In this document: positions 16,206 through 59,723 of the stretch, in pieces | Numbering within the stretch: position 1 is the stretch's first letter | Layout: every line of letters starts with the position of its first letter | Origin: Candidatus Gastranaerophilales bacterium | GTDB taxonomy: Bacteria > Cyanobacteriota > Vampirovibrionia > Gastranaerophilales > Gastranaerophilaceae | Length of the DNA stretch: 59,855 bases | Assembly: GCA_944324235.1 (NCBI GenBank) | Contig: CALUVN010000004.1 | Span: 1-59,855 of the forward strand | Direction of reading: 5' to 3' | Notes under the pieces: model-generated | Database searches by the model: none | Seen by the model: the letters and a program-made list of their open reading frames with translations, nothing else | Told to the model about the DNA's origin: nothing | Translations under genes and position numbers: made by a program

Positions 16206-16580
16206 ATGAAAATAAATACTATCCCACACAATAAGACAACTTTTGGTATGGCTGTTATTACACCGGCGGCTGAAAAAGAAAAGGTTAGAGATTATCTGCA
16301 AAGACACATTACTACAGAAAAAGAAGTAATAAAACTGAATATGTATATTGAGGAACAGAAAAATAACCCTATTGATATATACATCGCAACAACAGAAAAA
16401 AGTAGAACCCAAAATGAAAAATTTAAAGCAATAGTCGGCGGCAGAGAATATATTTCTAAAAATCCTATTAGAGCAATAAGAAAAGCAATTAGTTCAGCAA
16501 ATAGCTTTTATGCTGAAAAATTGGTCAACGAAGCAAAATGTGCTGGCAAACATATGATTATTGCAAAACTACTAAAATAG
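16206..16580 (+). CDS. Unknown protein with N-terminal T-F-G leader
   Basis: I do not recognise this 124-residue protein. It opens MKINTIPHNKTTFGMAVITP, a short leader with Ile/Asn residues ending in T-F-G that is echoed in the kinase-like protein at 58719 and the DUF2023 protein at 58244. The remainder is mixed charge and probably alpha/beta, without a membrane segment or Cys pairs. A ribosome site (AAAAAGGAA) precedes the ATG, and a bidirectional terminator follows, so it is a single-gene unit divergent from the helicase. Codon use is like its neighbours, so it looks like a real gene. Confidence 0.75.
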   Translation: MKINTIPHNKTTFGMAVITPAAEKEKVRDYLQRHITTEKEVIKLNMYIEEQKNNPIDIYIATTEKSRTQNEKFKAIVGGREYISKNPIRAIRKAISSANSFYAEKLVNEAKCAGKHMIIAKLLK

Positions 16581-58243: not shown

Positions 58244-58711
58244 ATGTTTATTCAAGCTGTTAGCTCATTTGCAGCATATAAAAGAAACAACGTCAACGTT
58301 GTCAGAACTCCGCAGCAAACTTTTACTTCCTGCTGCGATAAGGATTGTTTGAAAACTCAAATTTCCGATTTACGTGTATTCAATCACCATATTTACGAAT
58401 ACAAAAAGGGACTGAGAAGGCTCATTCTCACTACAGAAAAAGGACAATATCAGGACGTAATCGAAAACCGTTTGCAAAATGAAAAAATTCCTTACCTTAT
58501 TAATCCTGTAGGAAACGGCAAAATTAACGTATTTTTCGGAGATGAACGCTGCGTCAAAGTTGCGGAAACACTGAACCCCAAGCTCAATCTTCTATCACCG
58601 GAACAAGATTTTATACTCGGAATCATGCTTGGCTACGACAGGGTTATGCAATGTGAAAGATATCTCAAATTCAAAGATAAAGAAATTAACCGCACCGATT
58701 CAATGATTTGA
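58244..58711 (+). CDS. DUF2023 protein with N-terminal leader
   Basis: Residues about 44-140 match DUF2023 as I know it: VFNHHIYEYKKGLRRLILTT, VFFGDERCVKV, LSPEQDFILGIMLGYDRVMQCERYL. That family is a small cytosolic protein of unknown role, sometimes beside a flavodoxin gene. Here the domain is preceded by a leader of about 43 residues (MFIQAVSSFAAYKRNNVNVV then QQTFTSCC). The leader is the unusual part; it resembles the leaders at 16206 and 58719. The gene has its own strong promoter. AGAGG precedes the ATG. Confidence 0.82.
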   Translation: MFIQAVSSFAAYKRNNVNVVRTPQQTFTSCCDKDCLKTQISDLRVFNHHIYEYKKGLRRLILTTEKGQYQDVIENRLQNEKIPYLINPVGNGKINVFFGDERCVKVAETLNPKLNLLSPEQDFILGIMLGYDRVMQCERYLKFKDKEINRTDSMI

Positions 58712-58718
58712 TACAAAA

Positions 58719-59723
58719 TTATTTTGAAAGAATATTGTCTAAATAATCACTTGTTAACTTAAGTCTGAGTTTTTGTTCTGGTACAATCTTACGCATACTC
58801 TTCAATGTATTCATAACACTGCCAGAAGAAACTTTTAGATTGCATAAATTTTCAATAATATTATTCCATATAATTTTATCAGCCGGGCAGTCACCGAAAT
58901 CAAGATTGCACTTCATACCAGCAAGTATAATTTTCTTTAAAAGCTGCCGCCTTGCAGGCACTGCACCATCACTGTAAGGGGCAAATGTTTCAATGTTCAT
59001 TTTTTCTAAAAATACACTCAGCATTTCAGCAATCGAATTAGGATTTTTTATACAAGTTGATGAAATTTCATCGGTAATCCTCAATGTATTGCCAACAAGC
59101 ACAAAATTATTAGGATTCTTAAAATCAAAAGTATAATTATTAAAACCTCTTCCCATTTTATTCAGAGTATCAAAATCTTTTGCAATTGCATCAAACGCTC
59201 TTTGCGGGACAGCAGCAAATTTAGGCAGGTAAATATTTTCATAATAAGCCTGTGCATCATCCGGCAATAGCGAGGCTAACAATTTTTGCGGAATACCTGC
59301 TTGAGTGTGAATTCCGCAAGAAGAAACATTCTTTAAAATCTTAGCATGTGTAAAATTTGCTACAGACTCACCGTAATAAGTTTTCAAAGCTCCAAATTTT
59401 TTCTTTGGAATATTTTCAAAAAAGAATAAATCAGCTGTTAAATTGGGCAGCTTAAACGCATACTTATCATCAATTTTATAAACTCGGCCATGAAAACCTG
59501 CACCTAAAAGTCTCTGAGAATTAAAATGCTTTAAAACAAAATCATTAAACGCAGAAGTGAGATTAGAAACATCCTTCTTGCACACTCTTTGCTTATCCAA
59601 AACAACATCCAGCTGACGCGAAAATGCTGAACGATAACCGAATGTCGGAGAATATGACATTTTTTTATTACTTCTTATATTATTAAAATTTTGATTAAAA
59701 GTTGCAATTTGCATACGACACAT
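58719..59723 (-). CDS. Protein-kinase-fold protein with N-terminal leader
   Basis: This 334-residue protein has the main features of a Ser/Thr kinase: Gly-rich loop GAGFHGRVYKI (74-84), Lys91 in YAFKLP, a likely alphaC Glu119, a catalytic loop D200-F-K-N-P-N205 (DxKxxN in kinases) and Asp218 in ITDEIS (DFG position, though FG are absent). The N-terminus (NFNNIRSNKKMSYSPTFGYR) is a leader like those at 16206 and 58244. The helical C-lobe is short. No secretion genes are close by. It may phosphorylate a partner or a small molecule; whether it is exported is unknown. Two possible ATGs (59723, 59714), neither with a ribosome site. Confidence 0.75.
   Translation of the reverse strand: MCRMQIATFNQNFNNIRSNKKMSYSPTFGYRSAFSRQLDVVLDKQRVCKKDVSNLTSAFNDFVLKHFNSQRLLGAGFHGRVYKIDDKYAFKLPNLTADLFFFENIPKKKFGALKTYYGESVANFTHAKILKNVSSCGIHTQAGIPQKLLASLLPDDAQAYYENIYLPKFAAVPQRAFDAIAKDFDTLNKMGRGFNNYTFDFKNPNNFVLVGNTLRITDEISSTCIKNPNSIAEMLSVFLEKMNIETFAPYSDGAVPARRQLLKKIILAGMKCNLDFGDCPADKIIWNNIIENLCNLKVSSGSVMNTLKSMRKIVPEQKLRLKLTSDYLDNILSK

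Follow-up and report, generated by a model that had tools for sequence, protein, structure and literature searches.

An uncatalogued, strongly diverged protein-kinase-like family, probably of active phosphotransferases, with a recurrent N-terminal leader in the class Vampirovibrionia

We report that an open reading frame in the window, by which we mean the whole stretch of DNA analysed (59,855 bp, the entire contig C4 of a 1.94 Mb genome that is 99.8% complete), probably encodes a phosphotransferase of the protein-kinase-like (PKL) type, from an uncatalogued family that has diverged strongly and belongs to the class Vampirovibrionia. We put the probability of this reading at about 0.68. By its named relatives, the genome falls in Candidatus Gastranaerophilales, within this class. 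The family is richest in gut Gastranaerophilaceae and, judging from its conserved residues, is probably enzymatically active. On this reading it adds an uncatalogued group, marked by a longer catalytic loop and by the lack of an alpha-C helix, that is spread across the gut Gastranaerophilaceae. The features to which we refer are given here by their positions in the window.

58719..59723, minus strand: PKL-family open reading frame of 334 amino acids, from the list of open reading frames
59714, minus strand: likely true start, Met4, giving a product of 331 amino acids, from the starts of homologues
59634..59714, minus strand: leader, residues 4-30, polar and disordered, with the anchor F28-G29 at its end, from pLDDT, homologues and recurrence
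59481..59504, minus strand: Gly-rich loop GAGFHGRV, residues 74-81, in which G76 is invariant
59451..59453, minus strand: K91, candidate ATP-phosphate Lys, in YAFK, from the alignment of 51 homologues
59202..59207, minus strand: P173-Q174, where the second C-lobe helix begins; all 51 homologues have Q174
59103..59126, minus strand: putative catalytic loop DFKNPNNF, residues 200-207, in which all 51 homologues share D200, N203 and N206
59070..59072, minus strand: D218, putative DFG-type metal Asp, within D-E-I, from the alignment
58722..58970, minus strand: C-terminal helical region, residues 252-334, from the model, with K264 conserved in at least 90%
58244..58711, plus strand: DUF2023 neighbour, convergent, with a leader-like N-terminus (PF09633, E 2.4e-38)

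The open frame that an earlier note on this DNA had placed at these coordinates on the minus strand is real and under purifying selection. Comparison with four orthologues of 51-84% identity gave dN/dS values of 0.14-0.27 over the full length and of 0.11-0.14 in the core. The frame does run for 334 amino acids, and we correct its start to Met4, which is the probable one because homologues open with M[KQ]I. The protein has an orthologue at 85% identity, and a paralogue at 35% identity is present on contig C3 of the same genome.

Structure prediction supports the protein-kinase fold that the earlier note had proposed. AlphaFold2 run on the family alignment produced a confident model (mean pLDDT 91.4, pTM 0.87), a core-only model reached a pLDDT of 92.5, and the elements follow one another as in the two-lobe PKL topology; no fold of another kind, which would have spoken against the proposal, was predicted. 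The leading Foldseek matches in the PDB were all PKL proteins, namely APH(2''), the IRAK3 pseudokinase, choline kinase, PI3K and Lpg2603, and phage Ser/Thr kinases stood on top in a viral library. These matches are nevertheless weak (best E 1.1e-3, TM about 0.25-0.4), and the window protein is therefore to be regarded as a remote PKL member. The model has no helix between beta3 and beta4, so that the alpha-C helix and its ion-pair Glu are absent; this does not exclude a PKL protein, because alpha-C is also missing in some predicted kinase families.

The residues that the family retains are those expected at a PKL active site. No variation is seen among 51 homologues at G76, G118, Q174, D200, N203, N206, D218 and K264, and when more distant members (18-46% identity) were added the only invariant columns were G76, D200, N206 and D218. 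These four correspond to the glycine of the Gly loop, the catalytic Asp, the metal-binding Asn and the DFG Asp of the PKL active site, and their conservation is far beyond chance. Most of the motifs listed in the earlier note could be recovered in this way. Its Gly-rich loop is GAGFHGRV, its ATP Lys is K91 (Lys in 43 and Arg in 8 of the 51 homologues), and its distal Asp is D218. The Phe-Gly of DFG, which it had noted as missing, is indeed replaced, since D218 is followed by E-I in the window protein and the position reads D-[DE]-[ILV] in most members. The HxD His is also lacking, F preceding D200. The DxKxxN that it had proposed holds in part: D200 is invariant, but residue 202 is Lys in just 10 of 51 homologues and residue 205 is Asn in 48 of 51, so that the motif as first read was partly accidental. 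Because N203 and N206 are invariant and K202 is not conserved, the family motif is better written D-x-x-N-P-x-N. The canonical catalytic loop, as in PKA, is D-x-K-P-x-N, and the Asp-Asn spacing in the family is thus one residue longer.

We propose that ATP-Mg is probably held between a small beta-sheet N-lobe, with the Gly loop (G76) and K91 and without alpha-C, and a helical C-lobe that would supply D200 as catalytic Asp and N206 and D218 as metal ligands. The gamma-phosphate would then be passed to a substrate. A protein is the most likely substrate class, yet the nearest structures include aminoglycoside phosphotransferases.

Comparison with known kinase families placed the protein in none of them. 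Searches of Pfam and NCBIfam returned no match to the window protein even at E 5. It is not a Hanks-type Ser/Thr kinase (PF00069), having no Pfam match, no HRD and D-E-I in place of DFG, nor is it assigned to the APH family (PF01636), which likewise gave no Pfam match; APH(2'') enzymes are the best Foldseek matches of both models, but at E 1e-3 at best and a TM of about 0.3. The sole solved kinase matched by sequence was SteC (PDB 8jbi), whose N-lobe was hit by profile at E 7.9e-6 and 6.9e-7 over ~48 residues that begin shortly before the Gly loop and end shortly after the Lys. SteC, a secreted effector of Salmonella, is a reduced kinase whose motifs depart from the standard and which can dispense with the alpha-C Glu (PMC13395416). 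Its HD and DGD motifs, as described there, are absent here, where F-D and D-E-I are found instead, and we therefore speak of resemblance to SteC, confined to the N-lobe, and not of membership. Lpg2603 (Lem28; PDB 6vve), an IP6-activated effector kinase of Legionella, has the remote PKL fold in common with the core model (Foldseek probability 0.99, TM 0.40, E 4.8e-3), but by sequence it scores E 2, so that the likeness is one of fold. As for Kinase-PolyVal (PF18762), the window protein had no match and three distant members matched the N-lobe weakly, the best at 22.9 bits and thus below the curated cut-off of 27 bits. Loss of the usual C-terminal subdomain has been described for Kinase-PolyVal (PMC5512222). 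The present family differs from it in being chromosomal, and searches of phages, plasmids and viral contigs gave no member. What counts against the PKL reading as a whole, then, is the weakness of the Foldseek matches, the lack of a Pfam or NCBIfam match, the absence of the alpha-C helix with its Glu, of the HxD His and of the DFG Phe-Gly, and the Arg at position 91 in 8 of 51 homologues.

A single-sequence search found a homologue in 80 of 288 genomes of Gastranaerophilaceae, and in 70 of the 235 of good quality. A profile search across the class was positive in 105 of 240 genomes and reached three of its other families at E values from 1e-6 to 1e-23. When 292 genomes were drawn from across the phylum, the matches listed all fell within the same taxonomic family. 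The distribution is patchy, and the gene is therefore an accessory one. Tandem copies occur, and we also noted an in-frame tandem fusion of two homologous family domains (638-640 aa; L047:933-2846:+, genome G187, C1) and, on the minus strand of L139, a frame of 739 aa in which an apparent kinase-like domain (YDFNLGN, FFDFE) precedes a domain of the present family. Five matches cross one in-frame stop (G043:C10:23478-24431, G216:C29:20115-21068, G196:C1:18392-19342, G257:C19:35861-36763 and G116:C23:23942-24931); these members are possibly pseudogenes, or else the ends of the matches may overrun the true stop. A phage or plasmid origin was rejected, as no relative was present in viral contigs, phages or plasmids and the family is chromosomal; the window protein had no match in PHROGs. 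A role as a defence system was also rejected, PADLOC giving weak matches only (mad6, best E 1.2e-4, 3 members). Among open-licence papers we found no literature on the family or on its leader.

The N-terminus of the protein is set apart from this conserved core, residues 1-21 being disordered in the AlphaFold2 model (pLDDT <50). Of the TFG leader described in the earlier note, the leader itself is real and the window protein does read PTFG, but the form found across the family is a variable, polar stretch that ends in F(x)G(Y); of 58 sequences, 57 have the Phe and 42 the Gly. It is fast-evolving, with an identity between close relatives of 31-48% against 59-93% for the core. The further claim that such a leader is also seen on unrelated proteins is confirmed by our counts. 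The pattern was present at the first ATG of 17 of 500 non-redundant non-kinase proteins, against a mean of 1.4 and a maximum of 5 in shuffles (n=200) and 3 of 2192 at internal Met; the Fisher p of 2e-10 is optimistic, because this stricter pattern was written after examples had been seen. The sample comprised about 440 kb of this genome together with loci of relatives, with frames called mechanically. With a first, looser pattern, superseded by the stricter one, the enrichment had been modest, at 16 carriers where shuffles averaged 7.0. Among the carriers are an HNH nuclease, an AAA ATPase and the kinase-like protein P0001 described below, and in some carriers a transmembrane or signal-like segment follows the leader, so that a single export meaning for all carriers is not obvious. 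Kinase relatives from another, large-genome family of the class have no leader and bear a long, unrelated N-terminal extension, which indicates that leader and kinase domain are separable. We envisage the leader as a separate, disordered tag grafted onto the kinase and onto other proteins of the lineage, for which targeting or docking would be the most likely role. Shared in this manner, it defines a set of tagged proteins in uncultured commensals.

Two proteins with such a leader deserve mention. One of the carriers (P0001, L080:11308-12732:+), encoded in the same genome, is also kinase-like but looks unrelated to the present family; its loop is a standard D-L-N-P-N-N, and it matches LanKC, RIO1, Bud32 and APH models weakly. 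The other, of 124 amino acids, lies in the window at 16206-16580 (+); it begins with a leader of the same kind (MKINTIPHNKTTFG) and has no Pfam match.

The convergent arrangement of the DUF2023 gene and the kinase gene is kept in four genomes of the genus. We count the DUF2023 gene as a neighbour of the kinase only, and a conserved operon partner was sought across genera and rejected. DUF2023 pairs with flavodoxin in Bacteroidetes (PMC10434189), and the protein is presumably intracellular, since its relatives elsewhere are encoded with flavodoxin. A second DUF2023 gene (L126:5464-5775:+), without a leader-like start, lies beside fliR/fliQ/fliP.

Several other readings have to be weighed against a diverged PKL phosphotransferase, and they overlap with it in part, as a sugar kinase or an effector kinase would also be a PKL phosphotransferase. 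We give little credence to a pseudokinase, that is, an ATP-binding or scaffold protein without catalysis. The alpha-C Glu, the HxD His and the DFG Phe-Gly are missing and the Lys is Arg in some members, but no positions of the family are better conserved than the catalytic Asp, the metal Asn and the DFG-type Asp, which is the reverse of pseudokinase decay, and predicted Legionella kinase families that lack alpha-C or have Arg for the Lys retain the same Asp and Asn residues (PMC9758233). With these residues retained and with such precedents, ATP-dependent phosphotransfer would be expected. A kinase of small molecules or envelope sugars, similar to APH or Kdo kinases and tied to surface polysaccharide that the same locus would produce, is unlikely, though we treat it as live without favouring it. 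It would fit the best Foldseek matches, which are APH(2'') enzymes and choline kinase, and it would fit the surroundings of the gene in its genus, where in the four genomes compared an MsbA-like transporter is located within a few genes of the kinase. The three relatives have a KdsC/KDN-9-P-type phosphatase ahead of the transporter, one or more of them adding a PseF-like cytidylyltransferase, glycosyltransferases or CreD, and the phosphatase is also nearby in two genomes of another genus. However, other genes surround the C3 paralogue and the members in most other genera, and the window protein lacks a Pfam APH match.

The effector idea, a lead in the earlier note, stays a lead, and an unlikely one in our estimate: the protein would be a secreted kinase with a type III-type export signal in its leader, would leave the cell through a flagellin-less flagellar export apparatus and would act on host cells or other microbes. 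In its favour are the disordered, polar and fast-evolving N-terminus, the patchy and tandem-duplicated occurrence of the family in gut bacteria, and the fact that SteC, itself an effector kinase, is the best sequence match among solved structures. The genome also has flagellar-type export and basal-body genes: FlhA on C55 (L123:6529-8628:-; its score reaches the curated cut-off of neither the FlhA nor the SctV model), FliP, FliQ- and FliR-like and FliM/N-like genes on C19 (L126:5772-9707), FliF and FliE on C54 (L127:182-2219), FlgB/C/G-type rod proteins on C10 (L073:71-1624), and FliH. Flagellin was recovered from four control genomes, but the same search gave no match to it in this 99.8% complete genome, and export genes without detectable flagellin make a candidate type III-type exporter and hence a possible route. 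Partial flagellar gene sets have already been described for Gastranaerophilales (PMC5877343), and other Melainabacteria have flagellin (PMC3787301). A VirB4-type T4SS was rejected as a route, no VirB4 having been found in the genome. Against an effector stand the carriers of the leader, which include the HNH nuclease and the AAA ATPase and some of which look intracellular, as well as the similar start on the DUF2023 protein, presumably intracellular as set out above, and the transmembrane or signal-like segments that some leaders precede. Moreover, the apparatus may be a mere decayed flagellum, and the kinase gene sits among variable chromosomal neighbours. The link between leader and export apparatus is speculation. 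That the F(x)G leader is the export signal of a filament-less flagellar type III apparatus, which delivers a tagged repertoire including kinases to the gut or to host cells, strikes us as improbable; if true, commensal, non-photosynthetic Cyanobacteriota would possess an effector system that has not been described before. The leader set does make a testable question of whether a filament-less flagellar export apparatus secretes tagged proteins.

In the same genome, on contig C20, we observed a paralogue of the cytoplasmic domain of FlhA that stands alone (L122:10076-11560:+). Directly after it lies a 4-alpha-glucanotransferase-like gene (L122:11629-13665:+) whose product has a leader-like start (MQVSGIRNSNMGQSVVFGRRP).
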